64,000 nt of DNA. It comes from Bosea sp. NBC_00550. GTDB taxonomy: Bacteria; Pseudomonadota; Alphaproteobacteria; Rhizobiales; Beijerinckiaceae. Shown piece by piece: positions 2,585 through 42,689 of the stretch (position 1 is its first letter; each line of letters begins with the position of its first letter). Under the pieces are notes generated by a model. That model saw nothing but the letters and a program-made list of their open reading frames with translations. It was not told where the DNA came from and did no database searches. Position numbers and translations under genes: made by a program. Where the stretch lies: assembly GCF_026020075.1 (NCBI RefSeq), contig NZ_CP102772.1, positions 3,570,501-3,634,500 of the forward strand, written 5' to 3'.

Positions 2585-2619
2585 CCAAAAAGCAAAAAGC
2601 GCCGGAAGATCCGACGCTT
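2585..2619 (-). terminator. Rho-independent terminator copy, downstream of the tRNA-Gly fragment
   Basis: On the minus strand a 10-bp stem (2610-2619 with 2597-2606, one mismatch) and a 3-base loop are followed by T5GCT5. It is the duplicate of the terminator at 42553-42587 that follows the intact tRNA gene. Confidence 0.7.
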
Positions 2620-2646
2620 GCATGCTTCTCAAGCCTTGAGATTGTC

Positions 2647-2692
2647 TGGAGCGGGCGAAGGGATTCGAACCCTCGACCCCAACCTTGGCAAG
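2647..2692 (-). pseudogene. tRNA-Gly 3' fragment
   Basis: The last 46 bases of tRNA-Gly(GCC) including the T arm (GGTTCGAATCC) and the encoded CCA end, identical to the intact gene at 42615-42689. The D arm and 5' acceptor strand are missing and replaced by unrelated sequence from 2693. It marks an island junction and is not a functional tRNA. Confidence 0.88.
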
Positions 2693-2834
2693 CGATTTAG
2701 CAACTTATCGCAGTAGTTCGTTCGCGTTCCGGAGTGTCGCTCTGGAACGTCGGAGTACGAATTGTACAGTCCGTAAGAGTTTGAGTGCCATGAACCCACG
2801 CGACTTCCGTGAACTGCAGTGGAGGGGGGAGACT

Positions 2835-2851
2835 GTAACCGCGGGGTAACC
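2835..2851 (+). repeat. Paired GTAACC repeat, copy B (inside left junction)
   Basis: GTAACC-GCGGG-GTAACC with the same 11-base period as the copies at 2524 and 42491. It lies 143 bases inside the island from the tRNA fragment. Possible integrase arm site; role inferred from position and repetition only. Confidence 0.45.
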
Positions 2852-2905
2852 GCGAGCGTGGTGCATTTGCATTTTCCAGCCCGCGTTTCATACAACGCCA
2901 CATGC

Positions 2906-3133
2906 TCACAACTGTGATGTGTCGTCCTGGTTCGCGTCGACAAATTTCTTTGCTTCGCTCACGAACAATAGCCACGTCGGAACATCGCTGCTCGGCAGGC
3001 TATCAATGAATGGCCTAGCGCCAGTGACAGCGGGTATCGCCCCGTCGAGCGGGCGGTCGGGATCCAATCGCTTCGCTCGATACATGGCCCGCGCGATCCG
3101 AATGATCCGGGCATGCTCATGCGCATCGTCCAT
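2906..3133 (-). CDS. Hypothetical small protein
   Basis: 75 residues, acidic, family not recognised. The start at 3133 is preceded by GGAAGG at a normal distance, which supports real translation. No membrane segment or signal peptide. The N terminus is rich in His, Arg and Ala (DDAHEHARIIRIARAMYRAKR), probably helical, and the C terminus ends in DANQDDTSQL. It is the first gene inside the left island junction, and the local base composition is less GC-rich than the flanks. The methyltransferase gene follows downstream in the same orientation. Confidence 0.5.
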   Translation of the reverse strand: MDDAHEHARIIRIARAMYRAKRLDPDRPLDGAIPAVTGARPFIDSLPSSDVPTWLLFVSEAKKFVDANQDDTSQL

Positions 3134-3203
3134 AATGAACCTTCCAGATTCGCCAATCCGCGGCGTCGTCCGAGAAGTCAGGACATCAGAGTGCGATGAA
3201 CTT

Positions 3204-4016
3204 TCACACGACCTGCGCCTTGACCGCCCACGCTCTCGCCTTCAGATGGATCGAACCGTCCTCCTGGCGGGGTAATGTCTCGGCGAGCTTCTGCCGCAAA
3301 CGTTCGCGATGGTCGGGCTTCAGACTCATGCAGTAGCCCGGGGCTGGGCCTGCTCCGAGCGTGAACGGCTGCCAATAGTCGTCGAAGTCCTGGAATATCG
3401 TGGGCGCTTCGATCAGCGCATGATCGAGGACATCCAGGCCCGCATCCTTGACCAGCGCTGTCAGCTCATCTGGGGTGCAAAACGGGAAGCGTCGGCTTTC
3501 CATCAGATCGAGGACCTTTGAATCGAGTTGGATCGCAGCCCGCCAAAATGCTCGGATGAACTCGATGCCACCGCCGGGATAATCCCAAACATAGAACCCG
3601 ATCAGCGCACCCGGACGCCCAACGCGCCGCATCTCGCCAAGCGCCATTTTACGATCCGGCACAAAATTCAGGACCAGAGCGGAGACAATTACGTCAACGC
3701 TTCCGGCCTCAGCCGGAAGGGCCTGGGCATCGCCTAGTCGAAATTGCACGCGCTCATCCGAGAGCGCGCCCTGCGCTGTCTGGAGAAAACCCTCTGAGGG
3801 ATCGATGGCAAGCACACTTTTTGGCGAACACCGAGCGACAATGGCGGCCGAAAGCGCGCCGGTTCCGGACCCTACATCGAGCCAGTCCACACCGACCGGT
3901 GCATCGAGCCAATCAAGAAACTGTGGTGCGATCTGTCGGCTCCACCGGCCCATGTAGCGGTTGTAGCTGTCTCCGGCGCTCCAAGCGTCGTGTCGTGCAC
4001 TCTCGGTCATGGCCAC
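3204..4016 (-). CDS. Class I SAM-dependent methyltransferase
   Basis: 270 residues with the Rossmann methyltransferase fold of the UbiE/Methyltransf_11 group. Motif I is WLDVGSGTGALS near residue 50, an acidic residue ends strand 2 (AIDPS), motif II is RLGDAQALP, and the post-motif region has VLNFVPDRKMALGEM. The start at 4016 or the ATG two codons later is possible. The methyl acceptor is unknown. The gene is monocistronic, and the 490-base gap upstream has no recognisable gene. The protein looks intact. Confidence 0.82.
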   Translation of the reverse strand: MAMTESARHDAWSAGDSYNRYMGRWSRQIAPQFLDWLDAPVGVDWLDVGSGTGALSAAIVARCSPKSVLAIDPSEGFLQTAQGALSDERVQFRLGDAQALPAEAGSVDVIVSALVLNFVPDRKMALGEMRRVGRPGALIGFYVWDYPGGGIEFIRAFWRAAIQLDSKVLDLMESRRFPFCTPDELTALVKDAGLDVLDHALIEAPTIFQDFDDYWQPFTLGAGPAPGYCMSLKPDHRERLRQKLAETLPRQEDGSIHLKARAWAVKAQVV

Positions 4017-4504
4017 GCCCCCAAACGGTGAGTCTACACACCGTCCTGTCGAGGCGAAATGGCGGAGATGAGGCTAGGTTGGAGAACGGCCCACCACGAT
4101 CAGGCGGGATCCCAAGCTACCAGCGGCCCAGGCGATCCCAATCGCCGACGCAGTTGTCGCTCTCCACCGTGCATTTAGGGGTGAGCGGCTTCAATAGCTG
4201 CCACGCCCGCCTGAATTGATGCCGAGCGAACGCTAAGCGGTTCCGTCTGACGTGCCGAATCGGAAGAAGCCGCGTTGGGGTCGAAGTATCCCCCTGCTAC
4301 GTCCCAAATGAACCAGATCACGGACTCTGACGTCGATCACCTGCGCATACCGGTCACGCCGGAAGCGGACATTTTGCGACCAGGAACCATGTCCGCCTTC
4401 CTCACAGTAAGCTGCTCCTTCTTTTCCTCCCGCTCGCTCGAAAACTGGATAAGCTGCGTTTCACCAGCCAACTGAGCAGGGATTTACAGCAGACGGGGAG
4501 CGAC
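4017..4504. other. Intergenic region without a recognised gene
   Basis: About 490 bases between divergent genes. Only short overlapping frames without a Shine-Dalgarno sequence or family features were found. It must hold the promoters of the methyltransferase (minus) and haloperoxidase-like (plus) genes, but no sigma-70 consensus is convincing. Confidence 0.5.
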
Positions 4505-5725
4505 ATGAAACATGCAGCCGTAGCAATCGGCCTTCTGATGTCTTTCGCAACATGCACGGCAAACGCCGACACCGTCACAGACTGGAATCAGACAGCGATC
4601 GGGGTTCTCAAGGACGCGAACGTTGCCGGCAATCCGTGGACCCGCAGCATGGCGATGGTCCATGTTGCGATGTCCGATGCCGTCAACTCGGTGCAGGGTC
4701 GATATGGCCGATATGTTGCCACAGCGGATTTGACGCGCGATGCTTCGGCCGAAGCCGCAGCCGCGTCGGCCGCCCGGCAGATCCTGCTCCGACCCCATCC
4801 CGCTCAGAAGGTCATAATTGAGGAGGCTTTCACCACCTCAACCAAGGCGATCCCTGATGGTGCAGGGAAGACATCGGGCATAGCGCTCGGCGAAAAGGTG
4901 GCTACGCTCGTCCACGCCGATCGCGCGGCGGACGGTACCAGTGCCCCCGACACCTATCGACCCGTTGCCACACCGGGAATGTGGATACCCACGACGCCGC
5001 CATTATTGGCACAATATGCCCAAGCAAAACCTTGGGTGCTCAAGAGCGCTGACCAGTTCCGCCCGGGTCCACCGCCGCAATTGACGAGTGCGATTTATGC
5101 CCGCGATTACAACGAGACGAAAAGTTTAGGTGGCATCCGAAACACCACGCGTACAGCAGAGCAATCCGACATCGTGAAGTTCTGGACGCAAGCGAATATC
5201 AGCCCCGCCTGGCAGGAAGCGGCACGCCAGATCTCGGCGGCCAAGGGACTGGGACTCGCGGAGAATGCACGGCTCTTCGCATTGCTCAACATGGCCATGG
5301 CGAACACCTTCATTAACGACTGGGATGCCAAGTTCACCTATAACTTCTGGCGGCCAGTTACGGCGATACGCAACGGCGATATGGATGGCAACGATGCCAC
5401 CGAACGCGATGCCGGCTGGACGTCGTCGAATGCAACGCCGATGCACCCGGAATACCCGTCACAGGCGGCGATTGTCGCCGGAGTGTCGGTACGCGTGTTG
5501 GAATTGGTTGTTCCGTCCGCGCAAAGCGTACCGGTGACGGCGACAGACTTAATCGATCCGACCAAGAAGCTTCAGTTTGCCAGCATTAAGCAATTGGCGG
5601 ACGAGCAGTGTGATGTGCGAGTTTGGGGCGGAATCCATTTTCGCACCTCGCTTGAGGTCGGCGTGGACATGGGCAAACAGATCGCCGAGTACATGGTGGA
5701 GCACTCGCTCAAGCCCTTGCAATGA
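4505..5725 (+). CDS. Vanadium-dependent haloperoxidase/PAP2-like secreted protein, His-substituted
   Basis: 406 residues with an N-terminal Sec-type signal peptide (about 1-22, ending ANA-D). Two of the three vanadate/phosphate-binding motifs are intact: K276-x6-R283-P284 (KFTYNFWRP) and R372-x5-H378 (RVWGGIH). The middle P-S-G-H motif reads P-S-Q-A (318-321), so the histidine that acts as acid/base in haloperoxidases and acid phosphatases is replaced by alanine. The protein may bind phosphate-like ligands or have a changed activity. GGGGAG six bases upstream supports the start. It is monocistronic; a hairpin follows the stop. Confidence 0.82.
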   Translation: MKHAAVAIGLLMSFATCTANADTVTDWNQTAIGVLKDANVAGNPWTRSMAMVHVAMSDAVNSVQGRYGRYVATADLTRDASAEAAAASAARQILLRPHPAQKVIIEEAFTTSTKAIPDGAGKTSGIALGEKVATLVHADRAADGTSAPDTYRPVATPGMWIPTTPPLLAQYAQAKPWVLKSADQFRPGPPPQLTSAIYARDYNETKSLGGIRNTTRTAEQSDIVKFWTQANISPAWQEAARQISAAKGLGLAENARLFALLNMAMANTFINDWDAKFTYNFWRPVTAIRNGDMDGNDATERDAGWTSSNATPMHPEYPSQAAIVAGVSVRVLELVVPSAQSVPVTATDLIDPTKKLQFASIKQLADEQCDVRVWGGIHFRTSLEVGVDMGKQIAEYMVEHSLKPLQ

Positions 5726-5767
5726 TGCCGCAACACCGAAATTGGACGGCGCGGTTTTAGGAGGTTC

Positions 5768-5801
5768 GGGGCTGGCTTTTTTGGGTATGGAAGTCAGCCC
5801 C
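5768..5801. terminator. Hairpin between convergent genes
   Basis: An 11-bp stem (5768-5778 with 5791-5801, one mismatch) encloses a 12-base loop. It stands between the stop of the haloperoxidase-like gene and the tail of the truncated binding-protein gene, whose stop lies in the stem. T-rich sequence lies in the loop rather than after the stem, so termination is plausible but not certain. Confidence 0.45.
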
Positions 5802-6054
5802 AAAATCGGAAATTTGAGAAATTCCTGACAAGACGCTCGATTTCAACTGATCCCGCTTGGGCCATGTAACAATTCAACGGGGCGTAGATCGCACGTTGTT
5901 TGGCGTCGCCCATCGCGCCGCCGGAATTGCCGACGACAAGCCTGGTGGCGCCAAACGCCCGCCCGGGGATGATGACGGCCGGTGCCGCAAGAGCCGCGAC
6001 AGCCCCCTTCAGAACCGCGCGGCGGCCGAGTGCATTGGACGGGGAGGCTGGCAT
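5794..6054 (-). pseudogene. Truncated ABC transporter solute-binding protein
   Basis: The N-terminal ~60 residues copy the start of the intact binding protein at 8971-10020. They comprise a Tat-type leader (LGRRAVLKG followed by a hydrophobic Ala-rich stretch) and the mature start TRLVVGNSGGAMGDAK, matching RLVIVNSGGAMGDAK of the paralogue. Homology stops after IYAPLN near position 5875, and the remaining ~25 codons are unrelated. A full family member is ~350 residues, so more than 80 percent is gone. It lies directly downstream of the ATPase gene, so it is probably the stump of a second binding protein cut by a rearrangement. Confidence 0.8.
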
Positions 6055-6122
6055 GTTGACAGGCCTTTCCAAGCTTGAGGATATGCTCGGCATCCCGAAG
6101 AACGCCGGTTTGGGCCAGGTCA

Positions 6123-7223
6123 TCAGCGTTCGAGGAAGCGCCCCGTCTCTGCGGGCCACGAGACCTGCACGCGCAGGCCGGGTTCCAGCCGGGTGGTCGA
6201 GGGGTCGGTGAGCTCCTGGATGGAGACCGTCGCGCCGCTATCCAGGGTGACGAAATGCTTCGAGGTCGCGCCGGTCACGAGCGTATTGTCGAGATGGCCG
6301 CTCAGGACGTTGTGCCCTGCCGCAACTTGTCCGTTCTGGACGAGACGCAAGGCTTCCGGTCGCAGCAGCAGCTTGCCCGCAGCTCCGACCGATGCAGGAC
6401 TGTGAAGGCGGACGCGGCAGCTTTCGCTCGCAGACAATCGCAGGAGAGCCGGCTCCCCTGTTTCGGCAACGGTTGCGTCGAGAAGCGTGGAGGCGCCGAT
6501 GAAATCTGCGGCGAACTGCGTGCAAGGCTCGAAATAAAGTTCGTCGGGCGTGCCGATCTGCTCGACCCGGCCGGCATTCATCAACATGATCCGGTCGGAC
6601 ATGTTGAGCGCCTCTTCCTGATCATGCGTCACGTAGAGCATGGTGATGCCGAGCTCCTTGTGGATGCGCCGGATTTCGAGCTGCATCTGCTCGCGCAGCT
6701 TCTTGTCTAGGGCGCCCAGCGGCTCGTCCATCAGGATGAGATCGGGCTTGTAGACGATGCAGCGCGCGATCGAGATGCGCTGCTGTTGCCCCCCCGAGAG
6801 CTCTTTCGGCTTGCGGTCCCCGACATGCGGAAGCCGCACGAGTTCCAGCACCTCGGCGACCCGCCGGCGAATCTCCGCGCGCGGGACCCTCCTGATCTCG
6901 AGCGGAAACGCGATGTTCTCGGAGACCGTCATATGCGGCATGAGCGCGTAGTTCTGGAAGACCATGCCTAGGCCGCGCTTCTCGGACGGCACTTCGGTGA
7001 CGTCGCGGCCGTTGATGACTATGCGGCCTCGCGTCGGCGCCGCCATGCCCGCGATGAGGTTGAGCAATGTGGTCTTTCCCGAGCCCGAAGGCCCGAGGAG
7101 GGTCAGGAACTCGCCTGTCGGAACGGATAGCTCGGTGTCGTGCAGGGCGACGACGGAGCCGTAATCTTTGCGCAGGCCGCTGATCTCGATCATCGCGGCT
7201 TTGGCTCCGCTGCTGTCAACCAC
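6123..7223 (-). CDS. ABC transporter ATP-binding protein, spermidine/putrescine type
   Basis: 366 residues. It has a Walker A GPSGSGKTT near residue 44, Q-loop FQNYALMPHM, signature LSGGQQQR, Walker B LILMDEPLGALD and H-loop YVTHDQEEA. The C-terminal ~120 residues form the TOBE regulatory domain (LLRPEALRL), as in PotA. This start overlaps the upstream permease stop by 8 bases; an internal ATG at codon 11 is an alternative. It energises the permease pair encoded upstream in the same operon. Likely substrates are polyamines or other small cationic or opine-like compounds; specificity cannot be read from the ATPase. Confidence 0.93.
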   Translation of the reverse strand: MVDSSGAKAAMIEISGLRKDYGSVVALHDTELSVPTGEFLTLLGPSGSGKTTLLNLIAGMAAPTRGRIVINGRDVTEVPSEKRGLGMVFQNYALMPHMTVSENIAFPLEIRRVPRAEIRRRVAEVLELVRLPHVGDRKPKELSGGQQQRISIARCIVYKPDLILMDEPLGALDKKLREQMQLEIRRIHKELGITMLYVTHDQEEALNMSDRIMLMNAGRVEQIGTPDELYFEPCTQFAADFIGASTLLDATVAETGEPALLRLSASESCRVRLHSPASVGAAGKLLLRPEALRLVQNGQVAAGHNVLSGHLDNTLVTGATSKHFVTLDSGATVSIQELTDPSTTRLEPGLRVQVSWPAETGRFLER

Positions 7224-8010
7224 TGCGTGCTTCCTTCTGAACGGTGGCGACGATCACGCAGACGACGATCGAAAGCGCCGTCAGCATCGTCGAGATCGCC
7301 GCCAGGACCGGCGAGACCTCGAACTGGATCGAGGAGAACATCTTGATCGGCAGCGTGGTGTCGCCGGCCCTGGCGACGAACCAGGAGATCACCACCTCGT
7401 CGAAGGAGATCAGGAAAGCGAAGAGGCCACTCGCGATGATCGAGGGTGTGAGCAGAGGCAGCGTCACCCGCCGCAGCACGATCAGGCGCGAGGCGCCCAT
7501 GACGGTCGCCGCGCGTTCCAGCGCCGGGTCGATATGGCGCAGGCCGGCGCTCGCCGTGACGACGACGAAAGGCAAAGTCGCGATCGCGTGAGCGAAGATA
7601 AGGCGTAGCTCGCCATTGGTCAGCCTGATCTCGGTGAAATATATGTAGAGCGCCAGCGCGACCGCGACATGCGGCACCATCACCGGACTGAGCAGGAAAA
7701 GCGCGAGGATTTTCCGGCCCGGGAAGCTGCCGCGCGTCAGGGCATAGGCGGCGGGGATGCCGAGGAGCAGCGCCAGCAGCGTCGACCAGATCGCGACACG
7801 GAAGCTCAGCCAGGTCGACGCGACCCAGCCCTCCTCTGCAAAGAAGCGCCTGAACAAGGCCAGTGAAAAACCCTTCGGCGGGAAGACGATCTGATTGGAA
7901 GAGCCGAAGGAAATCACGGCGGTGATGAGGCTCGGCAGGAGCATGAAAACCAGTATGACCGTGACCACGGCGCCCAAGGCGATGCGCCAGCCGCTGATGC
8001 GCGTTTCCAT
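7216..8010 (-). CDS. ABC transporter permease, PotC-like
   Basis: 264 residues with six predicted membrane helices. The EAA coupling loop reads ERAATVMGASRLIVLRRVTLP near residue 170. The start ATG at 8010 overlaps the stop of the preceding permease (TGATG), a typical coupled arrangement. It forms the inner-membrane channel with the product of the adjacent gene for import driven by the ATPase downstream. The frame stays open upstream of this ATG, but the longer product has no permease character there, so the shorter start was chosen. Confidence 0.92.
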   Translation of the reverse strand: METRISGWRIALGAVVTVILVFMLLPSLITAVISFGSSNQIVFPPKGFSLALFRRFFAEEGWVASTWLSFRVAIWSTLLALLLGIPAAYALTRGSFPGRKILALFLLSPVMVPHVAVALALYIYFTEIRLTNGELRLIFAHAIATLPFVVVTASAGLRHIDPALERAATVMGASRLIVLRRVTLPLLTPSIIASGLFAFLISFDEVVISWFVARAGDTTLPIKMFSSIQFEVSPVLAAISTMLTALSIVVCVIVATVQKEARSG

Positions 8011-8864
8011 CAGTGCCCCTCCTCGGAGAGGATCGACGAGCCGCCCCTGACCTTCGACAGCAACATGGCGGCGACCGCCGCGGCGGTGACCAGCAGCACC
8101 GCGACCGCCGAGGCCATCGGCCAGTTGAGCGCCTCGCGAGTGTAGAAATCGACGAGATTGGCGAACATCATGTCCTGCCGCCCGCCGAGCAGAGCCGGGA
8201 TGATGTAGAAACCAAGGCTCAGGATGAAGACGAGCAGCGCACCGGCCATCACGCCCGGCAGACTGAGTGGGAGCGTGACCCGAAGGAAGATCCTGAGCTT
8301 TCCCGCTCCCATGATGGCGGCTGCCTTCGCCAATTCCGGTGGCTGGCTGCGCAGGCTCGTCAGGATCGGAAAGACGAAGAACGGGATGAGGAAATGGCTC
8401 ATGCCGACCATCACGCCGAAGCGATTGAACAGCATCTTCACCGGGGCGATGCCGAAGGCACCGAGCATCTGGTTGATGATCCCGGCCTGTCCGAGCAGCA
8501 CCATGAAGGAGAAGCTCTTGACCAGCGAACTCGTCCAAAACGGCACGAGCACAAGGATCATGTAGAGCGCGCGTCGCCGCGGCGACTGTTTCGCCAGGAA
8601 ATAGGCGATCGGGTAGGCCAGCAGCAGCGAGAAGACGGTCGCGCTGACACTGACCTCGAGCGTCGTATAGGCAACGCGCAGGAACAGCGGCGTCGAGAAG
8701 ATCTTGGCATAGGCCTGGAATGTCAGCCCATCGCCGTTCTCCTGCTGCAGGCTCTGCCGCAGGACGCTGAACAGCGGAAAGGCGAAGAGCAGGGCCATGA
8801 ACAGCGCCGCCGGCATCGCATAAGCCGCGTCTCGGAAATGCGCCTTGGTTGCGCGAAGCTGCAT
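8010..8864 (-). CDS. ABC transporter permease, PotB-like
   Basis: 284 residues from the chosen ATG (MQLRATKAHF); an ATG 12 codons further upstream is possible. A first hydrophobic helix (AALFMALLFAFPLFSV) is followed by a periplasmic loop and five more helices. The EAA loop is AKAAAIMGAGKLRIFLRVTLP near residue 205. It is the first permease of the operon and pairs with the PotC-like subunit to form the transmembrane channel. The binding protein is encoded 106 bases upstream on the same strand. Confidence 0.92.
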   Translation of the reverse strand: MQLRATKAHFRDAAYAMPAALFMALLFAFPLFSVLRQSLQQENGDGLTFQAYAKIFSTPLFLRVAYTTLEVSVSATVFSLLLAYPIAYFLAKQSPRRRALYMILVLVPFWTSSLVKSFSFMVLLGQAGIINQMLGAFGIAPVKMLFNRFGVMVGMSHFLIPFFVFPILTSLRSQPPELAKAAAIMGAGKLRIFLRVTLPLSLPGVMAGALLVFILSLGFYIIPALLGGRQDMMFANLVDFYTREALNWPMASAVAVLLVTAAAVAAMLLSKVRGGSSILSEEGH

Positions 8865-8970
8865 GTAAGAACCCCGACCGATCACCTGCCGCGCCGGCAA
8901 CGTAAGCGTTCCGCAAGGGAGTTCGCTACGCGCCGGGCGGTCGTCTCAAGGACTTCGACCCCCCGATGGG

Positions 8971-10020
8971 TCAGGTCAGCAGCCATTCCTTGAAGCGGGT
9001 ATTGAGCTCCTCGATCCGGCTGTCCCACCAGGTCGCGTTGACGAACAGATTATCGGGGTCTGCAATGTTCGGCAGCCATTTCCGCGTCGCCGGATCGACC
9101 TTCGCCAAAGCGTCGGCATAGGTCGGTGCGTCGCCCGACAGATTGGACAGCTCGACCTGCCGGTCCTTGTCCATCGTGAAGGCGAGGAAGCGCATCGCCG
9201 CGTCGCGATTCTTGGTGCCCTTCAATGCGCCGATCCAGCCGATGCCGAGGATGTTCTGCTTGAAGGAGTAGTCGATCGGCACATTCGCCGCCTGGAGATC
9301 TTTGACGCGCGTCGTGTAGGTGTAGGTGAAATCGGTTTCGTTGCCCTGGATGAGCGAAACCGTCTGCGCGGTCTGGGCGATCCAGTGCGAAACGTGCGGC
9401 TTGATCCGCTCGAGCGCCTTGAAGGCCCGATCGATATCGCAGGGATAGACCTGGGACGCCGGCACACCGTCACCCATCAAGGCGATCTCGAGCGTATCCG
9501 TCACCCGGTTGCGCAAGCCGCGGCGGCCGGGAAATCCCTTCGCATCCCAGAATTCGGGCCAGGTCTTCGGGGCCTTGCCACCCAGCCGATTGGTCGGGAA
9601 GGCGATGCCGGCAGCATAGACGGTGCCGCCCACGGCATACTCGTGCTTCGACTGCGGAATGGCGTCGGCGCGGTTGACGATGCTCTCATCGACTTTTTCA
9701 AGCAGGCCGAGTCTTGCTGCTGCGGGAACCCAGGCGTCATTGAGATCGGTGATGTCCCATTCGACATCCTTGCGTTCGACCTGCGCCTTCATCTTCGCGA
9801 GATCGGGGCCCGAGGCGGTCACGATCTCGATGCCGGTCGCCTTGGTGAAGGGATCGTAGAGCGCCTTGCGCTTGGCATCGCCCATGGCACCGCCGGAGTT
9901 CACGATGACGAGACGTTTGCCCTGCGCCCAGCCGGGGCGGATATAGGCGGGGCTGGCGATGGCGCCGGCGGCGAGGCCACCGATCACGGAGCGGCGGGAA
10001 AGCGGCTGCAGGTCCGGCAT
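8971..10020 (-). CDS. ABC transporter periplasmic solute-binding protein (PotD/polyamine-type)
   Basis: 349 residues. The N terminus has a twin-arginine leader (LSRRSVIGG, hydrophobic stretch, then A-Q-G cleavage region) and the mature protein starts RLVIVNSGGAMGDAK. The rest matches the type-2 periplasmic binding fold of the spermidine/putrescine group, including WDITDLNDAW, TDTLEIALMGDG and FTYTYTTRVKDL. AGGGGAT lies upstream of the start. It should capture the substrate in the periplasm and deliver it to the two permeases. The adjoining amidase and amino-acid enzymes suggest an amide or amino-acid derivative as cargo. A truncated paralogue lies at 5794-6054. Confidence 0.9.
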   Translation of the reverse strand: MPDLQPLSRRSVIGGLAAGAIASPAYIRPGWAQGKRLVIVNSGGAMGDAKRKALYDPFTKATGIEIVTASGPDLAKMKAQVERKDVEWDITDLNDAWVPAAARLGLLEKVDESIVNRADAIPQSKHEYAVGGTVYAAGIAFPTNRLGGKAPKTWPEFWDAKGFPGRRGLRNRVTDTLEIALMGDGVPASQVYPCDIDRAFKALERIKPHVSHWIAQTAQTVSLIQGNETDFTYTYTTRVKDLQAANVPIDYSFKQNILGIGWIGALKGTKNRDAAMRFLAFTMDKDRQVELSNLSGDAPTYADALAKVDPATRKWLPNIADPDNLFVNATWWDSRIEELNTRFKEWLLT

Positions 10021-10135
10021 TTTACGATCCCCTGTTTTTTGTTTGATGCCGCAGGTTCTCGCGGCACGGCATCGAAATCCATGGGCCGAATGATGGCTCT
10101 CGGCGGCATAAGCGACAATTCGCCGACGATAGCCG

Positions 10136-11500: not shown

Positions 11501-11609
11501 AGAACAATCCTCTCCAACGTCGTGTTTGGCCCTGCCCGGCGGGCACCAGATTCGGTCCTGCGCATGCAGCGGTTCCGCAGAGCCGCACTCCGCGGCATGA
11601 CAGCGATGT

Positions 11610-12113: not shown

Positions 12114-12202
12114 GAGCTTCTCACGAACCCGATGGCTCAGCGTAACGTGCAACTGGGCGATGCAAAAGCCGCTCTGTAAAATGTGCCGGACAACTCCGTC
12201 AT

Positions 12203-33145: not shown

Positions 33146-33301
33146 CCGGACACTGACAACGTCTGCTCCCGGGCGCTTCAGGAGCGCACTGGCTAAGGGC
33201 GAGCTTGGCCCGTTCCCTACTCTCGCTACGTCGGCGTTCGGCGGTCTGAACGGCACGTTAATGCAGACGCCGAAAGCGGTCTGGAAGAGACTCTGCTCCT
33301 G

Positions 33302-34048: not shown

Positions 34049-34066
34049 GCGACGCCTCCTTGACAT

Positions 34067-34078
34067 AATTTATAAATT
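34067..34078. promoter_or_regulatory. AT-rich palindrome in the GntR/operon divergent promoter
   Basis: AATTTATAAATT, a perfect 12-base palindrome in an unusually AT-rich stretch (34060-34110), lies between the GntR gene and the amidohydrolase gene. It may be an operator or overlap the promoters; TTATAAG at 34104 could be a plus-strand -10 element. Inferred. Confidence 0.35.
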
Positions 34079-34152
34079 TAAATTCCAATCGAGAGATTAC
34101 CCATTATAAGAGACGCAAAGCAAGAACGTGCATTTTGGAGGGATGGAGAGCG

Positions 34153-35208: not shown

Positions 35209-36122
35209 CCCGTTTCCCGATCAGCAGCCTGCGCAGCGTCGAGATCGACACGCCGGATATCGCCGTGTCGGAGCGCTTCTATACGCAGATCTGGGGTCTT
35301 TCCGTCGCCGCGCGGCAGGATGGCGTCGTCTATCTGCGGGCGACCGGCGCGGACCATCATGTCCTCGCGCTTCATGCCAGCCAGAGCCCGGAAATCCTGT
35401 CGGTAACCTTCAGGGTCGATGAAGACAGCGATCTCGCCGCCGTCGCCGAGCGCGCCGTCGCGCAGGGCGCGACCATGCTCGTGCCCCCTGGCCCCAATGC
35501 GGAGCCGGATGGCGGCATGATCGCCACGCTCGCCGAGCCGCAGGGCGGGGTCTACCGCCTCGTTCAGGGCGACCGGCACCATGCCGATGCCTGCGAAATC
35601 CGCGACCGGCCGTCGCGACTGGCCCATGTCAATCTCAACAGCGTCGATGTCGATGCGCAGGCGGCGTTCCATGAGAAGGCGCTGGGCTTTGTCTTGACCG
35701 ACCGCTCGAAGCTGATGGCCTTCCTGCGTTGCAACAGCGACCATCACGCGGTGGTTCTCGCCGAGGCGAAGGCCAACGGCCTGAACCACATCGCCTTCCT
35801 CGTGCCCGACTGGGAATCGGTGATGAGAGCTTCGGGCCGTCTCGTCGATGCCGGTTATCCCATTGGCTGGGGCGTCGGGCGGCACGGCCCCGGCGACAAT
35901 GTCTTCGCCTATTTCGTCGACCCCGTCGGCTTCGTCGTCGAGTTCACCGCCGAGGTGCTGCAGGTCGACGATGACTACCGCGTCCGTGGTCCCGACGAGT
36001 GGGTCTGGCCGCCGGGCCGAACCGACCACTGGGGCATCGCGCCGCCGAAACCCGACCATGTCAAGGCCGCCCAGGCGGCGATCACCTATCGCCCGGCTGC
36101 AAAGCCGCCGGGCTCCCGATGA
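35205..36122 (+). CDS. Extradiol ring-cleavage dioxygenase, VOC (type I) family
   Basis: 305 residues made of two vicinal-oxygen-chelate modules. The C-terminal module carries the iron ligands: His in RLAHVNLN (near residue 142), His in LNHIAFLV (near 193) and Glu in VVEFTAEV (near 249). The accessory active-site segment GRHGPGDNVFAYFVDPVG is typical of catechol 2,3-dioxygenase relatives. It cleaves a catechol-type diol next to the hydroxyl groups. It overlaps the amidohydrolase gene and is followed by the flavin hydroxylase, so the three act in one pathway. Confidence 0.9.
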   Translation: MTRFPISSLRSVEIDTPDIAVSERFYTQIWGLSVAARQDGVVYLRATGADHHVLALHASQSPEILSVTFRVDEDSDLAAVAERAVAQGATMLVPPGPNAEPDGGMIATLAEPQGGVYRLVQGDRHHADACEIRDRPSRLAHVNLNSVDVDAQAAFHEKALGFVLTDRSKLMAFLRCNSDHHAVVLAEAKANGLNHIAFLVPDWESVMRASGRLVDAGYPIGWGVGRHGPGDNVFAYFVDPVGFVVEFTAEVLQVDDDYRVRGPDEWVWPPGRTDHWGIAPPKPDHVKAAQAAITYRPAAKPPGSR

Positions 36123-36126
36123 ACCT

Positions 36127-37785
36127 GTGTCAAAGGCAGTTGCGCAAGTGAGCCAGGCGGACCTTCCAAACCCCGACCATTATCAGGTCGTCGTCGTCGG
36201 TTTCGGCCCAAGTGGCGCCGTTGCAGCGAGCCTGCTCGGCCATCACGGCATCCGCAGCCTGGTGATCGACAAGCAGCGCGAGGTCTATGACAAGCCGCGC
36301 GCCATCGCGATCGACCACGAGATCATGCGGCTTTTCGACAATCTCGGTGTCGCCGGTCAGGTCCTGCCGCATGTCGCGCCGTTCCATGCCTCGGAGCATT
36401 TCGGCGCTGAGGGCCAGTTGATCCGGCGCATCGACACGGTGCCGGAGCCTTATCCGCTGAGCTATGTCCCGACCATGGTCTTCACCCAGCCGCCGGTCGA
36501 GGCGGCGCTGCGCGCCCATGCGCGGGCCTATGACGGCATCGAGGTTTCGCTGGGGACCGAACTCGTCGATCTCACGCAGTCCGACCATCACGTGACCCTG
36601 ACCCTGCGGGCGGATGACGGCACCATGCGGACGGTCACGGCCGACTATGTCATCGGCTGCGACGGCGCCTCGAGCGGCATTCGCGAGCGCCTGGGCATCC
36701 CGCTCGACGACCTCGTTTTCGACGAGCCCTGGCTTGTGGTCGATGTGCTGGTGGACGATGTGGCGCTGACCAAGCTGCCGCAGACGGCGGCGCAGTTCTG
36801 CGACCCGAAGCGTCCGACGAGCTTCATCATCGGACCGGGCAACCATCGGCGCTGGGAGATCATGCTTCTGCCCGGCGAGGATCCGCGCGCCGCGCAAACG
36901 CCTGAGCGGGTCTGGGATCTGCTGGCGCGCTGGCTGACGCCGGAGGACGGGACGCTTTGGCGCGCGGCCAGCTACCGGTTCCACGCGCTCGTGGCGCAAC
37001 GCTGGCGTGTGGGGCGTGTCTTCATCGCGGGCGATGCGGCGCACCAGCAGCCGCCCTTTATCGGGCAGGGCATGTGCCAGGGCGTTCGCGACGTCGCCAA
37101 CCTGATCTGGAAGCTCGCCCGCGTGATCGAGGGCAGCTCTGGCGGGGCTTTGCTCGACAGCTATGAGCCCGAGCGCAGCCGCCATGTCCGCGAGTTGACG
37201 ACCCGGATCAAGGCGATCGGCCAGGTGATCTGCGAACGCGATCCGGTCGCTGCGCGCGAACGTGACGCCCGCATCCTCGCCGAGGGCGGCGGCCAGCCGC
37301 GCACCATCACACGACAGGAGATCGTCCCGCCACTGGCGACCGGCCTGCTCACGCAGCAGGACGATCCGGGCCGAGGCAAGCTGTTCCCGCAGCCCTGGGT
37401 AACGACGCAGCAGGGACGCGCCCGGCTCGACACCGTTGCGGGCGGGGGCTTTCGGCTGGTGATCGAGGCTGCGCTGGCGGCGCGGTTGTCACCGGGCATG
37501 CTCGCAAGCATCCACTCATGCGGCCTGCGGTTGGTCGTGCTGTCGCGCCTCGGTGAGCAACCTCTGCCAGGCGCCGACGTCACGGTCGAGGAATGCGATG
37601 GCGTGCTGCGAGCCTGGTTCGCCGCCTCCGGGCGCGCCGCCGCGGTCGTCCGGCCGGATCATTATGTCTTCGGCACCGCCGCCGCCGAAACCGAAATGGC
37701 TGCGCTTCTCGACGAACTCGAATCCGGCCTTGCTCCCCTGCATCCAGCCCCGATGGGGGCACAAACCGCACCCGCCCTTCTCTGA
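36127..37785 (+). CDS. FAD-dependent aromatic hydroxylase (MhpA-like)
   Basis: 552 residues from a GTG at 36127, 4 bases after the dioxygenase stop; a second GTG at 36148 is possible and neither has a strong ribosome-binding site. The frame is open far upstream but there it overlaps the dioxygenase gene. Motifs of group A flavoprotein monooxygenases are complete: GFGPSGAVAA for FAD, the DG motif GCDGASSGIRERLGIP and the GD motif GDAAHQQPPFIGQGM. The C terminus has a thioredoxin-like fold. It probably hydroxylates a phenolic acid to the diol that the neighbouring dioxygenase cleaves. Confidence 0.9.
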   Translation: MSKAVAQVSQADLPNPDHYQVVVVGFGPSGAVAASLLGHHGIRSLVIDKQREVYDKPRAIAIDHEIMRLFDNLGVAGQVLPHVAPFHASEHFGAEGQLIRRIDTVPEPYPLSYVPTMVFTQPPVEAALRAHARAYDGIEVSLGTELVDLTQSDHHVTLTLRADDGTMRTVTADYVIGCDGASSGIRERLGIPLDDLVFDEPWLVVDVLVDDVALTKLPQTAAQFCDPKRPTSFIIGPGNHRRWEIMLLPGEDPRAAQTPERVWDLLARWLTPEDGTLWRAASYRFHALVAQRWRVGRVFIAGDAAHQQPPFIGQGMCQGVRDVANLIWKLARVIEGSSGGALLDSYEPERSRHVRELTTRIKAIGQVICERDPVAARERDARILAEGGGQPRTITRQEIVPPLATGLLTQQDDPGRGKLFPQPWVTTQQGRARLDTVAGGGFRLVIEAALAARLSPGMLASIHSCGLRLVVLSRLGEQPLPGADVTVEECDGVLRAWFAASGRAAAVVRPDHYVFGTAAAETEMAALLDELESGLAPLHPAPMGAQTAPALL

Positions 37786-37799
37786 GAGGACATGTCTTC

Positions 37800-38648
37800 A
37801 TGCGTTTCGCGACTTTCCAACTTCAAGGCGCCCCGAGCTGGGGCATGATCGACGGCGAGGAGGCGGTCGATCTCGGCGCCGTGCTCGGCGAGCGTTACCC
37901 CGACCTCAAGAGCGTCATCGCCGCCGATGCGCTGGCCGAAGCGGCTGAGGCCGCGGCCCGGGCGCCCCGGCATCCGCTTTCGGCCATCGGCTGGCTGCCG
38001 GTTCTGCCCAACCCGGACAAGATTCTCTGCGTCGGGCTGAACTACGAGATGCACCGCAAGGAGACCGGCCGCGCCGTGGTCGAGAATCCGACCATCTTCG
38101 CGCGTTTCGCGAATTCGCAGATCGGCCATGCTGTGGATCTCGTCCGCCCGCGCGTTTCGCAAGAGCTGGATTTCGAGGGCGAACTCGCGATCATCATCGG
38201 CAAACCCGGCCGCTACATCACAAGAGCAGACGCCTTTGATCATGTCGCCGGCTACGCCTGCTACAATGACGGCAGCATCCGCGACTTCCAGCGTCACACC
38301 CACCAGTTCACGCCGGGCAAGAACTTTCCCGGCACTGGCGCCTTCGGTCCCTGGATGATGACGCCCGACGAATTGGGCGAGCTGCCCTCGCTGCGGCTTC
38401 AAACGCGGGTGAACGGCCAGGTCGTGCAGGACGCGACCTTCGCGCAGATGATCTTCGATATCTCGCACATCATCGAATATTGCTCCTCCTTCACGCGGCT
38501 GGAGCCCGGCGACGTCATCGCCACCGGCACACCCGGCGGTGTCGGCGCCAAGCGCACGCCGCCCCTTTGGCTGAAGCCGGGCGATATCGTCGAGGTCGAG
38601 ATCGACCGCCTCGGAACGCTGCGCAACGGCGTCGCCGAGGAAGCCTGA
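37800..38648 (+). CDS. Fumarylacetoacetate hydrolase family protein
   Basis: 282 residues; start supported by GAGAGGA 9 bases upstream. The FAH catalytic domain is complete: ILCVGLNYEMHRKE, the acidic metal ligands in ELDFEGELAIIIGK, YNDGSIRDFQ, KNFPGTGAFGPWM and TGTPGGVGAKRTPPLWLKPGD. Family members hydrolyse or isomerise C-C bonds of ring-cleavage products or hydrate oxopentenoates. Placed fourth in the operon, it most likely processes the product of the extradiol dioxygenase. Confidence 0.92.
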   Translation: MRFATFQLQGAPSWGMIDGEEAVDLGAVLGERYPDLKSVIAADALAEAAEAAARAPRHPLSAIGWLPVLPNPDKILCVGLNYEMHRKETGRAVVENPTIFARFANSQIGHAVDLVRPRVSQELDFEGELAIIIGKPGRYITRADAFDHVAGYACYNDGSIRDFQRHTHQFTPGKNFPGTGAFGPWMMTPDELGELPSLRLQTRVNGQVVQDATFAQMIFDISHIIEYCSSFTRLEPGDVIATGTPGGVGAKRTPPLWLKPGDIVEVEIDRLGTLRNGVAEEA

Positions 38649-38741
38649 GAATTCCGCTTTCGCCTGCAGCGTGGCTTCGAGGCTCACGAAGCGCGGGGTG
38701 AAAGCGCCACGCCATCCATCAAAAAGAGCCCGGAGGAAACG

Positions 38742-39719
38742 ATGTTCAAGCTCTCTTGTCTGGCCATGACGGCCGCGGCCGCGCTCATGGCGTCGACCGG
38801 TGTTCAGGCACAGTCATGGCCGCAGCGCCCGATCGCGCTCGTGGTGCCGCAGGCCCCGGGCAACAGCCCGGATATTCTCGCGCGCGTTCTGGCCGACAAG
38901 CTCTCGCGCAGCCTCGGCCAGCAGGTCTATGTCGAGAACCGCACCGGCGCCGCCAACATCGTCGGAACGCAGGCCGTGGCCCGCGCCACCCCGGACGGCT
39001 ACACCTTCCTGTTCGCCACCTCGGCCTCTCTCTCGACCAACCCGCACACCTTCAAGAAGCTGCCCTACGACCCTCTCAAGGACTTCGTCCCCGTGGCCAT
39101 GGCCGCGCGCAGCCATCATGTCCTGCTCGTCAATCCCAACCTCCCGATCACATCGCTGGCCGAGCTGATCGCGCAGGAGAAGGCCAAGCCCGGCGAGATC
39201 AGCCTCGCGGTCGACAGCGAGCGCAACATCTCCGGCCTGATCGGACAGACGATCAACCGGCGGGCCGGCATCAAGATGGTGCTCGTGCCCTATGCGTCGG
39301 CAGCGAATTCGATCCAGGATACGATCGCCGGCCGCGTCCAGGCGACGATCCAGTCGGCCTCCGTCGCGGAACCCTTCATCAAGGAAGGCACGCTTCGGGC
39401 CATCGCGGTTGCCGGCACGAAGCGCCTGGCCTCGCTGCCCGACGTTCCCGCGATCGGGGAGACATTGGCGAGCGCCGATATCGGGGGCTGGTTCATGGTG
39501 ATGGCGCCGGCGGGCACGCCGCCCGAGATCATCCAGACCATGGGGCAGAAGATCGGCGAAATCCTCCAGCAGGCAGACCTGCGCGAGCGGGCGCCGACAT
39601 TGGGCTTCGATGTCGACATCGGCCCGCTGGCTACACCGGCAGGTGCGAACGCTTTCCTGGTGAAAGAGGTCGCCGCGATGGGTGCACTGATCAAGGAGTT
39701 CGGCATCGAGCCGCAGTGA
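38742..39719 (+). CDS. Tripartite tricarboxylate transporter-type (Bug/TctC) substrate-binding protein
   Basis: 325 residues with a Sec signal peptide (1-23, ending VQA-Q). The mature part starts SWPQRPIALVVPQAPG, typical of Bug/TctC proteins, and contains PDGYTFLF and DVPAIGET. GGAGGAAAC precedes the ATG. It should bind an aromatic or dicarboxylic acid in the periplasm. No TctA or TctB membrane partner is encoded nearby, so it must use distant transport genes or act as a sensor component. Ninety-three bases separate it from the FAH gene; cotranscription is plausible. Confidence 0.92.
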   Translation: MFKLSCLAMTAAAALMASTGVQAQSWPQRPIALVVPQAPGNSPDILARVLADKLSRSLGQQVYVENRTGAANIVGTQAVARATPDGYTFLFATSASLSTNPHTFKKLPYDPLKDFVPVAMAARSHHVLLVNPNLPITSLAELIAQEKAKPGEISLAVDSERNISGLIGQTINRRAGIKMVLVPYASAANSIQDTIAGRVQATIQSASVAEPFIKEGTLRAIAVAGTKRLASLPDVPAIGETLASADIGGWFMVMAPAGTPPEIIQTMGQKIGEILQQADLRERAPTLGFDVDIGPLATPAGANAFLVKEVAAMGALIKEFGIEPQ

Positions 39720-40143
39720 TCGAGGGCGCCGGCGGGGGTCGGCGAGCCCTTACTATGCCGGATCGCGATGTCTGGTTGCGGGCGGAATGCCAAGATCAGG
39801 AAGTCGCGATTGCCCGCCGCCCGAGGTATTGGCAAGCCTGCGAACGTTTGCCGATGAAGATCCGCGATAGGGATAGGTCTGAAGGGCAGCTTGTGGCGCC
39901 GAGGGGACGAGCCCGATCGATGGCCGATGCGCCTCGCTCACGCAGAGATGGATGCGCCCTAAGCGTGCGTGGCCATGCCATGCCGAGTGTCGGAGCGAAG
40001 GGTGTCCCTCGGCAACGGTCGTCACGAAGCCGTGTGCCCCGCTGGCTGACGAGATTTTGCCGAATAGCTTCAGTAGGACTGCAGTGAATGGGAGGCTCGT
40101 GGCCTTGACCGACGGGCTGCCACCTCGATCCACGGAGCAAGCG
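39720..40143. other. Intergenic region without a recognised gene
   Basis: 424 bases between the TctC-type gene and the intradiol-like gene. Long frames on both strands lack starts, Shine-Dalgarno sites and family features. It may carry the promoter of the next two genes; nothing definite was identified. Confidence 0.45.
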
Positions 40144-40644
40144 ATGCTGCCAATGTTCACGACACGCCGCGGCCTGCTGGCTGCCGGGGCCGCCTTTGGC
40201 GCGACGGTGCTGACAGAGGGAGCGCCGGCCATCATTCAGCCGGCTCAGGCACAGGGATTGGCGCCGACGGGCTCGATGCGCGGGGGCGCCAACAATTACC
40301 GTCCGGGCGCGCCGATCGTGCAGCGGATCGGCAATGGCGGCTTCTGGATGTCCGGGACGGTGCGCCGGGCCGGCGATGGCGCGCCACTGCCCGGGATCCG
40401 CATCCAGATCTGGGCCCATACCACGGAGGGCTACGAGACCGATGCACAAAGCCACGGCGCGACGCTGACCGACGCCAATGGCATGTTCCGTCTGGAGATG
40501 CCGCAGATCATCCCGGCCTTCGGGCAGGCGCACGGCCATCTCGCCTATGACGATGCAGCCTTCAAGACGGTGTTCCTGCGCCCGGTGATGCAGAGTTCCC
40601 GAGACAAGAGCCTGAAGGCCGAATTCGTGCTCCAGTCGGCGTGA
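40144..40644 (+). CDS. Tat-exported intradiol-dioxygenase-like beta-sandwich protein
   Basis: 166 residues. The start at 40144 is preceded by GGAG; the twin-arginine leader is FTTRRGLLAAGAAFGATV, ending near AQA-Q. The mature part resembles the core of intradiol ring-cleavage dioxygenases and related transthyretin-like domains (GTVRRAGDGAPLPGIRIQIW, then SHGATLTDANGMFRLEMP). The Tyr-Tyr-His-His iron site of true catechol dioxygenases is not evident; only HGHLAYDD near the C terminus could provide ligands. A non-enzymatic or cofactor-binding role is possible. The membrane protein gene follows with overlap. Confidence 0.75.
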   Translation: MLPMFTTRRGLLAAGAAFGATVLTEGAPAIIQPAQAQGLAPTGSMRGGANNYRPGAPIVQRIGNGGFWMSGTVRRAGDGAPLPGIRIQIWAHTTEGYETDAQSHGATLTDANGMFRLEMPQIIPAFGQAHGHLAYDDAAFKTVFLRPVMQSSRDKSLKAEFVLQSA

Positions 40645-41276
40645 ACCGCATCCCATCGATAAGGGCGGCCCTGATCTGGGCCGTGGTCGCGGGCGCGATC
40701 GTCGTGTCGCTCGCCCTCGCTGCAACAAGCCCGCTGCTTGCATGGCGTGGGCCGATCTATGTCGTGGCCGGTTTTGCTGGCGTCGTGGCACTGGCGCTCG
40801 TTCTGCTGCAGCCTCTGCTCGCGGCCGGATACCTGCCTGGGCTCCCGGTCCCGCGCGGGCGTCGGGTGCATCGCTGGGTCGGCCCCGCGCTTGTCGGGGC
40901 GATCATCATTCACGTCGCCGGGCTGTGGCTGACCAGCCCGCCCGACGTCGTCGACGCGCTTCTCTTCAACTCGCCGACGCCTTTTTCGGCTTGGGGGGTC
41001 GTCGCCATGTGGGCCGCATTCGCCGCGGCGCTGCTCGCCGCGCTGCGCCGGCCCCTGCGCATCAGGCCGCGAGCCTGGCGTCTCGGCCATACCGGGCTCG
41101 TGGTGCTGGTCGTGCTCGGCGGGGTCGTCCACGCTCTGCTGATCGAGGGGACGATGGGGAGCGTCTCCAAGCTCGTGCTCTGCGCTCTCGTCGTCTCCGC
41201 CACCGCGGTCGCGCTGTTCGATCTTCGCGCCTGGATGTTGCTGACACGGCGAAAGCCGCAGGACCGGCGCCTATGA
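40641..41276 (+). CDS. Ferric-reductase-like/YedZ-type integral membrane protein
   Basis: 211 residues with a GTG start inside the stop of the previous gene. About six hydrophobic helices are visible. Histidines are placed in them as in b-type haem membrane proteins (VHRWVGPALVG, IIIHVAGLWL, GHTGLVVLVV, VVHALLIEG), resembling the ferric reductase/MsrQ (YedZ) transmembrane domain. Coupling to a Tat-exported partner suggests an electron-transfer pair that serves a periplasmic redox reaction. Haem binding is inferred from the histidine pattern only. Confidence 0.75.
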   Translation: MNRIPSIRAALIWAVVAGAIVVSLALAATSPLLAWRGPIYVVAGFAGVVALALVLLQPLLAAGYLPGLPVPRGRRVHRWVGPALVGAIIIHVAGLWLTSPPDVVDALLFNSPTPFSAWGVVAMWAAFAAALLAALRRPLRIRPRAWRLGHTGLVVLVVLGGVVHALLIEGTMGSVSKLVLCALVVSATAVALFDLRAWMLLTRRKPQDRRL

Positions 41277-41540
41277 TCCTCGCGGCTCCCAGCGAGCCCG
41301 CAGCGGGCTAACGGCCCTCCAGCCACCCCGTCGGACGCGTGCGCGGCAGCGCGAGGGGCCAAGGCGATGAGCGAAGAGCGTGACTGCCGCCGTGGGTTGG
41401 ACGCTCACAGCCGCGAATCGTTGATCGGATACGTCCGCTTTCCGGCATCGGCCGAATGTCGGCATTTGGCGCGCTACTGAAGTATTGACCTCGGCATCCG
41501 ACCTTGCTCAGTTGCCTGCTTCGACGAGATCAGAGCGGGT

Positions 41541-42440
41541 ATGGCCTTCGGCGTCTTCATCCATCGGCAGGATTCGATCTACGACGACAGCCCGGCTGAG
41601 CGGTATCAATTCCCGCGTCAATATCTCGGCCGCGCGCAGGTCTGCATCGGCGACTGGATCATCTACTATGAGCCGCGGAAGATCGCCGGGACGCGCGGCT
41701 ACTTCGCGGTGGCCAAGGTCCAGCAGGTGATTCCCGATCCGGTCGCACCGGGCATGTACATCGCCATCATCGAGCCGGGCAGTTATCTCGACTTCGCCAA
41801 TCCCGTCCCCTTCGCCGATGCTCAAGGCGTGATCGAGCGTGGCGTTCTAAATGAGGAAGGGCGCATTTCTGGTCGTGCTCAGTCGGCAGTGCGCCCGCTC
41901 TCGCCAGCGGACTTCGATCGAATCACCAGTCTCGGCTTGGAAGATCGGGCCTCGCTTTTGCCCCGGCTCGATGAGAATGTGGCGTCGGATGGCTTCGCAG
42001 AGGAACAGGTTCCGTTCGTGTTTGAACAGGATCGCGAACGGGCCAAGTTCCTTCCCTCGCGGATCGTCCGCGATCGCGTTTTCCGTCGCGTCGTTCTGCG
42101 TGCCTATGACGAACGCTGTTCGATCACTGGTCTCAAGCTAATCAATGGCGGCGGCCGAGCCGAGGTCGCTGCGGCTCACATCCGCCCCGTCGAGGCGAAG
42201 GGGCCGGATATCGTCAACAACGGCATTGCCTTGTCAGGCACCGCTCACTGGATGTTCGACCGCGGATTGATCAGCCTGTCCGACGAGCTCGATATCCTCA
42301 TCTCCCGACAGGCCAACGACGCTGACGGGATACGTAGCTTCATCAACAAGACGGGTCGAGCACTACCGCCACTGCGAGCTCATGACCGCCCGCACCCGCA
42401 TTTTCTGCATTGGCATCGGGAAAACTGCTTCAAACAGTAA
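41541..42440 (+). CDS. HNH endonuclease (restriction-like, two domains)
   Basis: 299 residues. The N-terminal ~110 residues form a YTH/EVE-like or PUA-like module (FGVFIHRQDSIYDD, GDWIIYYEPRKIAGTRGYFAVAKV). The C terminus is an HNH nuclease: AYDERCSITGL, then AAAHIRPVEAKG, NNGIALSGTAHWMFDRGLISL, matching the HNH_2 type in which a reader domain is fused to a nuclease. Such fusions occur in modification-dependent restriction, but no partner gene is present. It lies just inside the right end of the island; a decayed copy lies outside the left end. Confidence 0.82.
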   Translation: MAFGVFIHRQDSIYDDSPAERYQFPRQYLGRAQVCIGDWIIYYEPRKIAGTRGYFAVAKVQQVIPDPVAPGMYIAIIEPGSYLDFANPVPFADAQGVIERGVLNEEGRISGRAQSAVRPLSPADFDRITSLGLEDRASLLPRLDENVASDGFAEEQVPFVFEQDRERAKFLPSRIVRDRVFRRVVLRAYDERCSITGLKLINGGGRAEVAAAHIRPVEAKGPDIVNNGIALSGTAHWMFDRGLISLSDELDILISRQANDADGIRSFINKTGRALPPLRAHDRPHPHFLHWHRENCFKQ

Positions 42441-42490
42441 GGATTATCGGGCGCGCGCCGAGAGGTCCTGTGCGGCTCCGGATCGTACTT

Positions 42491-42507
42491 GTAACCGCCA
42501 TGTAACC
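42491..42507 (+). repeat. Paired GTAACC repeat, copy C (right end)
   Basis: GTAACC-GCCAT-GTAACC followed by ACGGGCTTTC, nearly identical in layout to copy A at 2524-2540. It lies between the HNH gene and the tRNA-Gly repeat. Probable recombinase arm site, inferred. Confidence 0.5.
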
Positions 42508-42552
42508 ACGGGCTTTCGGAGCCCTCTGGAAATGGCTCACGATGCGCAAGGC

Positions 42553-42587
42553 CCAAAAAGCAAAAAGCGCCGGAAGATCCGACGCTT
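42553..42587 (-). terminator. Rho-independent terminator of tRNA-Gly
   Basis: Read on the minus strand, a 10-bp stem (42578-42587 with 42565-42574, one mismatch) with loop TCT is followed by T5GCT5. It lies 28 bases after the tRNA 3' end. The same hairpin is present at the left junction. Confidence 0.75.
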
Positions 42588-42660
42588 GCATGCTTCTCAA
42601 GTCCTGAGATTGTCTGGAGCGGGCGAAGGGATTCGAACCCTCGACCCCAACCTTGGCAAG
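42553..42660. repeat. Right copy of 108-bp direct repeat (attachment-site duplication)
   Basis: Same sequence as 2585-2692 with two substitutions. Here it forms part of an intact tRNA-Gly gene, so this is the side at which the tRNA was restored. The matching block begins 9 bases before the terminator T-run complement and ends in the anticodon loop. Confidence 0.85.
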
Positions 42661-42689
42661 GTTGTGCTCTACCCCTGAGCTACACCCGC
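42615..42689 (-). tRNA. tRNA-Gly, anticodon GCC
   Basis: The cloverleaf can be drawn: acceptor GCGGGTG with CGCCCGC, D arm GCTC/GAGC, anticodon stem CAACC/GGTTG with loop TTGCCAA (anticodon GCC), T arm with GGTTCGAATCC, discriminator T and an encoded CCA. The terminator at 42553-42587 follows. It is the target of the island insertion and also the first conserved element of the right flank. Confidence 0.96.

Follow-up and report, generated by a model that had tools for sequence, protein, structure and literature searches.

How did a 40-kb island come to lie between two copies of the same tRNA-Gly(GCC) sequence in Bosea sp. NBC_00550, and did it arrive in a single step? The window analysed here, a 64,000-nucleotide stretch of contig NZ_CP102772.1 (assembly GCF_026020075.1, positions 3,570,501 to 3,634,500), is part of a 5.69-Mb contig in a genome of 6.27 Mb. 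Comparison with other Bosea genomes makes it very probable that the island at 2585–42660, which bears a gene for a tyrosine integrase (int), is the younger member of a stack of about 64.8 kb; it would have entered a tRNA-Gly(GCC) gene that already held the right end of an older island, with paired GTAACC motifs serving as its arm sites.

A repeat search of the window (seed 16, minimum 40 nt) gave one family of direct repeats, 108 nt long and 98% identical with two mismatches, whose copies stand at the two ends of the island (Table 1). As the initial annotation had described, the left copy holds only the 3′ half of the tRNA, cut at the anticodon loop, and the right copy lies within an intact tRNA-Gly(GCC) with its terminator. 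The tRNA in the left copy begins at the last base pair of the 5′ anticodon stem, and the sequence beyond this switch reads CGATTTA. ARAGORN and Rfam agree on the intact minus-strand gene, at 42615–42689 or 42618–42689. A 31-base tRNA-Gly(GCC) pattern has one exact match in this genome, and the three other matches have three mismatches each and a different anticodon-loop sequence. The gene looks single-copy here, and integration would therefore have to restore the tRNA. The repeat continues for 62 bp beyond the CCA end, through a hairpin and then a T-rich stretch. The earlier claim that the element brings a terminator together with the tRNA 3′ half is supported, but the length of the shared sequence has a plainer explanation. 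Since a nearly identical 62-bp block also stands at the empty sites of two relatives (G022 and G012), it is read as trailer and terminator, the remainder of the transcription unit that the element must bring, and not as an unusually long attachment core.

In G022 and G012, the DNA is homologous to that of this genome, apart from short gaps, as far as window coordinate −22252; about 100 bp follow, and then the tRNA block. Because the point at which the chromosome meets the tRNA there corresponds to −22.25 kb here, the acquired DNA can be put at about 64.8 kb, comprising an outer segment of 24.8 kb and the inner island of 40 kb, and the sites are empty for the whole stack, not for the inner island alone. 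An island bounded at the anticodon-loop junction had been proposed, with the genes left of it expected to be fused to the right flank in a relative lacking it. The boundary and the existence of empty sites are as expected, but the insertion goes on past 2585: positions 1–2584 are acquired DNA and the chromosome resumes about 24.8 kb further left. The G+C content of much of the island is like that of its flanks, which would suit ordinary chromosome with a 108-bp match left by an old tRNA remnant. This explanation is scarcely credible, being contradicted by the empty sites and by a 4.5-kb piece of the cargo 2 region that recurs (E up to 1e-100) in three of 40 other genus genomes, never on a tRNA-Gly contig. 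The outer segment looks, as read by eye, like a set of transport and catabolic genes; a family search covered two of them, at 476–2190. A 16-kb catabolic block within it, from about −13.95 kb to 2.19 kb (window 2191), has nearly colinear counterparts on other contigs (G022, G018) and at a distance of 2.1 Mb from the tRNA (G029), with 83–92% identity by segment.

Similarity to the left of the two repeat copies continues to 2508 (86% over 187 columns, repeat included), and further leftward over 132 columns (78%) and 31 columns (84%). The match extends so far because a decayed, internally deleted relative of the HNH endonuclease gene found at the right end of the island lies just left of the left copy; a chance match is excluded by the length, the identity and the same arrangement in other genomes. 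Since this decayed gene and an arm pair with one mismatch adjoin the left repeat, as at other Bosea tRNA-Gly copies, we conclude that it represents the right end of an earlier element. Its interpretation as the displaced native end of the tRNA is not supported, and no trace of such an end was found in this genome. A single element of 64.8 kb, entering once and later duplicating its right end to give the internal repeat, would suit the outer 24.8 kb, in which no integrase-family match was found, nor any tRNA fragment at its left edge near −22.25 kb. However, the two right ends are about 24% apart where they cover the HNH gene, and the decayed copy is no closer to its neighbour (distance 0.237) than to the WAO gene (0.217) or that of G018 (0.224). 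A late duplicate should be nearest its source, so duplication is disfavoured, the evidence being moderate as it comes from a 156-nt alignment of a decaying copy. A left-arm pair also stands right of the internal repeat, at its usual distance. Single entry is improbable on these grounds, and two successive entries are preferred.

Recognition by the integrase of the inner island probably extends beyond the 108-bp repeat, likely to arms outside it. GTAACC pairs, 11 bp apart, start 170 and 159 bp to the left and 143 and 154 bp to the right of the junction. Nine left ends or tRNA fragments were compared (the window, G019, G018, G024, G010, G036 and three of G014). The left-arm pair is present in seven of them with at most two of 12 mismatches, always at +143 or +144, where background expects 0.007. 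Only G000 (this genome) and G019, and G018 and G036, are alike between crossover and arm, so that five different sequences carry the pair. At the same threshold, 14 of the 32 intact tRNA-Gly copies that could be used (G030 and G019 were set aside at contig ends) have a right-arm pair next to them, without exception at −168 to −171; in an earlier, partly overlapping set, 17 of the 34 intact and partial copies have one (34 of 35 rows, a G019 partial being set aside at a contig end). The right-arm pair is missing at both empty sites and on the native side of G018 and of G024. Exact GTAACC pairs with a spacing of 10–12 bp number 15 in 768 kb of window and Bosea DNA, 13 of them at fixed places by tRNA-Gly blocks and two upstream of int (G000, G019), while 180 permuted 6-mers (GTAACC included) have a median of 0 pairs and the runner-up, overlapping GTAACC by five bases, has four; since the tRNA guided the choice of these loci and there is homology among some right ends, the count is neither genome-wide nor independent.

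The pairs are read as arm sites of the integrase, with a copy at the integrase promoter. The int gene is located 24 kb from the left end of the island and 14.5 kb from the right end. Its product is 93% identical to that of G019, on a contig ending in the tRNA terminator block, and 85% identical to that of G014, encoded between tRNA-Gly copies; of the 40 other genus genomes, these two alone have a match at E up to 1e-20. Scoring of 8000 candidates gave 1249 relatives at E up to 1e-10; of the 120 listed, those with names belong to Hyphomicrobiales, save one Magnetospirillum. By profile comparison, the solved structures closest to this integrase are the Int protein entries 6en0, 6emy and 6emz, presumably the Tn1549 integrase. 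Residues before about 79 have no family match, and a sub-threshold SAM-like match starts there; the N-terminal part may form an arm-binding domain. Helix–turn–helix (HTH) and excisionase-like genes adjoin int, which raises the alternative that the island excisionase or an HTH regulator, not the integrase, binds the pairs and represses int. This alternative has a precedent in KplE1, where control of int by a recombination directionality factor (RDF) is known (PMC2951348). Pairs on both arms at near-equal distance are better suited to integrase arm sites. Binding by such a regulator is unlikely, though not far-fetched.

Several observations weigh against the proposed sequence of entries and the role of the integrase. 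The empty sites document the whole stack, no comparison strain differing by the inner island alone. No good left-arm pair is present in G024 (four mismatches) or beside the outermost G014 copy (five). WAO has the HNH gene by its tRNA but lacks an arm pair there (four mismatches). At the promoter, the pair is spaced by 12 bp and not by 11 as in the arms, G014 has only one exact site, and the third site of G000 reads GGTTCC in both G019 and G014. RDF-type proteins, too, bind repeats of this kind. No PF00589 match was found between tRNA and fragment in G010, G018 and G036, nor in G024 among the matches listed, so the link between integrase and arms comes from three genomes. Furthermore, other integrases may share the arms, because G033 has a right-arm pair (one mismatch) and, 0.8 kb past its HNH gene, a PF00589 gene of another kind.

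On balance, the preferred course of events would be as follows. The tyrosine-integrase island would recombine at the anticodon loop of tRNA-Gly(GCC), and its own 3′ half, trailer and terminator would restore the gene; since the right end of an older island apparently lay there already, a stack would result, with 2585–42660 as the younger unit. The attP site of the circular form probably spans about 330 bp, with paired GTAACC arms on each side and the tRNA-derived core between them. Despite the distance, the integrase or a partner protein could probably regulate int through the copies upstream of the gene. The repeat, the empty sites, the decayed right end of the older element, the constant spacing of the arms and the promoter copies are observed directly, whereas the identity of the protein that binds GTAACC, the autoregulation of int and the present mobility of the island are inferred. 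It is possible, and suggested here tentatively, that this family of islands kept integrase feedback after int had moved inside, by means of the arm copies at its promoter, and that sibling islands with these arms (G010, G018, G036), in which no PF00589 match lies between the ends, are mobilised in trans by this integrase.

The same tRNA gene is occupied in other Bosea genomes. The DNA load there is 2.2 kb in G021, and the distance from tRNA fragment to intact gene is 6.3 kb in G024, 11.7 kb in G010, 17.7 kb in G036 and 31.8 kb in G018, the values for G024, G010 and G018 also being the loads. In G014, three partial copies accompany the intact gene, at about 65, 91 and 106 kb from it. The seven bases past the crossover are CGATTTA in five of the nine fragments and single-base variants (CGATTTC, CAATTTA) in two more; G000 and G019 also have in common the 160 bp directly inside the left end. 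Just beyond the tRNA-Gly terminator, a full HNH gene is present in G014, G018, G007, G010, G019, G020, G033 and WAO, and HNH fragments in G014, G001, G016 and G017; any HNH match occurs in 17 of 41 genus genomes. This arrangement has exceptions: a full gene about 16 kb from the nearest intact tRNA in G001 and another far away in G009, two fragments 35 kb from the tRNA in G029, and distant relatives (41–46% identity) located elsewhere in G009, G015 and G032. The HNH protein as a general companion of tRNA genes was rejected, as a complete tRNA lies within 400 bp of only four of 80 relatives (those from named genomes, kept of 544), three in Bosea and one in Rhizobium sophorae; in Bosea AAP35, the contig ends at the HNH relative. 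A GTAACC pair accompanies the HNH gene at three of the 80 loci, all in Bosea. In R. sophorae (L138, about 6897–7113), the HNH relative lies 142 bp from a tRNA-Gly(GCC) with no GTAACC pairs adjoining. Concerted evolution of the repeat copies was also considered and is suggestive only: for four of the seven partial copies used (of nine; one tie), the closest of 32 intact copies is their own.

Table 1. Features of the tRNA-Gly(GCC) locus in the window
Feature	Position	Strand	Remarks
Right end of outer acquired segment	1..2584		extends beyond the window, to about −22.25 kb
Decayed HNH gene relative	2341..2496	+	internally deleted; relative of 41541..42440
Old right-arm pair of outer element	2524..2540	+	GCAACC..GTAACC, 1 mismatch
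Left repeat copy	2585..2692		junction of inner element with earlier, outer element
Inner island without repeats	2693..42552		about 40 kb
Left-arm pair	2835..2851	+	GTAACC-N5-GTAACC, starting 143 and 154 bp from junction
Cargo 1	6123..20708		ABC transporter, amidase, AsnC regulator, aminotransferase, lyases, dehydrogenases
HTH protein	23601..23840	+	excisionase-like by weak PHROG matches
Prim-Pol / phage-like DNA primase	24210..26546	+	
GTAACC pair upstream of integrase	26757..26774	-	12 bp apart
Third, single GTAACC site upstream of integrase	26822..26827		
Tyrosine integrase	26873..28114	+	413 aa
HTH_3 regulator	28501..28746	+	
HTH_3 regulator	31253..31495	+	
Transposase	31968..33131	+	HTH_38 and rve
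Cargo 2	33302..41276		GntR regulator, amidohydrolase, glyoxalase-fold protein, FAD hydroxylase, FAA hydrolase, TctC receptor, others
HNH endonuclease	41541..42440	+	several other Bosea genomes have relatives or fragments here
Right-arm pair	42491..42507	+	GTAACC-N5-GTAACC, starting 170 and 159 bp from junction
Right repeat copy	42553..42660		tRNA 3′ half 42615–42660 and trailer/terminator 42553–42614; read as supplied by inner element
Intact tRNA-Gly(GCC)	42615..42689	-	sole copy found in genome; ARAGORN, Rfam, pattern search

The genes were taken from a simple custom gene caller. Forty proteins, 37 of them from the inner island, were scanned against Pfam, which covers the inner island except for three short genes, and two genes of the outer segment; six had no match, and there were no relaxase or conjugation genes, as in an integrative and conjugative element or integrative and mobilisable element (IME), among the 40. 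Cargo 1 also holds a DoeB-like deacylase (match below cut-off), and the transposase is, we assume, IS30-like. The HNH protein matches the phosphorothioated-DNA restriction enzyme family NF045808 (NCBIfam) with 99 bits, below the cut-off of 180, and over residues 131–298 only. Ten island proteins, a small part of the island, were compared with PHROGs; integrase, primase, excisionase-like and repressor-like matches were obtained, the HNH protein matched families of unknown function, and no phage structural gene was found among the ten. Outside the island, Rfam matches to the speF leader (50204–50351) and the ar45 small RNA (50359–50592) lie on the minus strand beside a minus-strand gene at 49005–50150, and a 46-nt inverted repeat, 83% complementary, is located at 53475–53520 and 53640–53685, its arms 119 nt apart.

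The acceptor pair 6:67 of tRNA-Gly(GCC) is U-G or A-U and is matched in all 34 intact genes (33 from Bosea, one from Rhizobium). In G021 both sides of the pair are switched, within the U-G clade. The split between the two types fits the host tree, with weak support, except for G021. Compatibility groups, with HNH genes travelling within one 6:67 type, are not claimed despite a partial Mantel p of 0.02 (10 genomes); host-like groupings (p-AU of the approximately unbiased test, 0.179 and 0.163) and a type-1 clade (0.313) are both compatible with the HNH tree. In the tRNA-Gly precursors (alignment A1), the leader TGTC(C) is complementary to the trailer GACA or GGACA. G001 (L084, L086) has three exact tRNA-Gly(GCC) pattern matches, two of them about 200 bp apart.

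The Bosea locus, compared across several genomes, lets one read the attachment arms, the crossover point, the displaced ends and the empty sites together. It shows that a repeat-bounded island may top a larger stack, which a repeat-only search would cut short, and yields a direct prediction on the regulation of an integrase gene far from its attachment site. The open-licence literature searched describes no Bosea tRNA-Gly islands, yielded only work on bradyrhizobia for Bosea integrases and genomic islands, and gave no description of attachment sites with the terminator downstream of a tRNA, nor, in a narrow search near that question, of int promoters that carry arm-like copies far from the attachment site. 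The kind of element is well known, and the remote promoter copy is its unusual part. Anticodon-site tRNA islands and tandem arrays are established, the anticodon site A accounting for 2083 of 3919 Islander-type islands (PMC4383910). Like these, the Bosea island has an intact tRNA, a displaced 3′ fragment of the same orientation, ending at the anticodon loop, and a tyrosine integrase inside, and its empty site is found in relatives; its interior integrase and the shared sequence running 62 bp beyond the tRNA may set it apart (PMC4383910). The tandem ssrA islands of Dehalococcoides are likewise serial islands at one essential RNA gene, each with a 3′-end repeat, but have a protein of the serine-recombinase family and a 20-bp repeat (PMC3146451). 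In the accretion of IMEs and cis-mobilisable elements (CIMEs), a newcomer also enters an att site bearing the target-gene end of a decayed resident element; a CIME lacks an integrase and keeps both att sites, whereas the outer Bosea segment has no far tRNA fragment and is no CIME by that definition (PMC5704250). Finally, autoregulation of KplE1 intS involves recognition sites at the integrase promoter, as would apply to Bosea; there, attL overlaps the promoter, whereas the Bosea promoter, 24 kb from the left end, seems to have copies of its own (PMC2951348).

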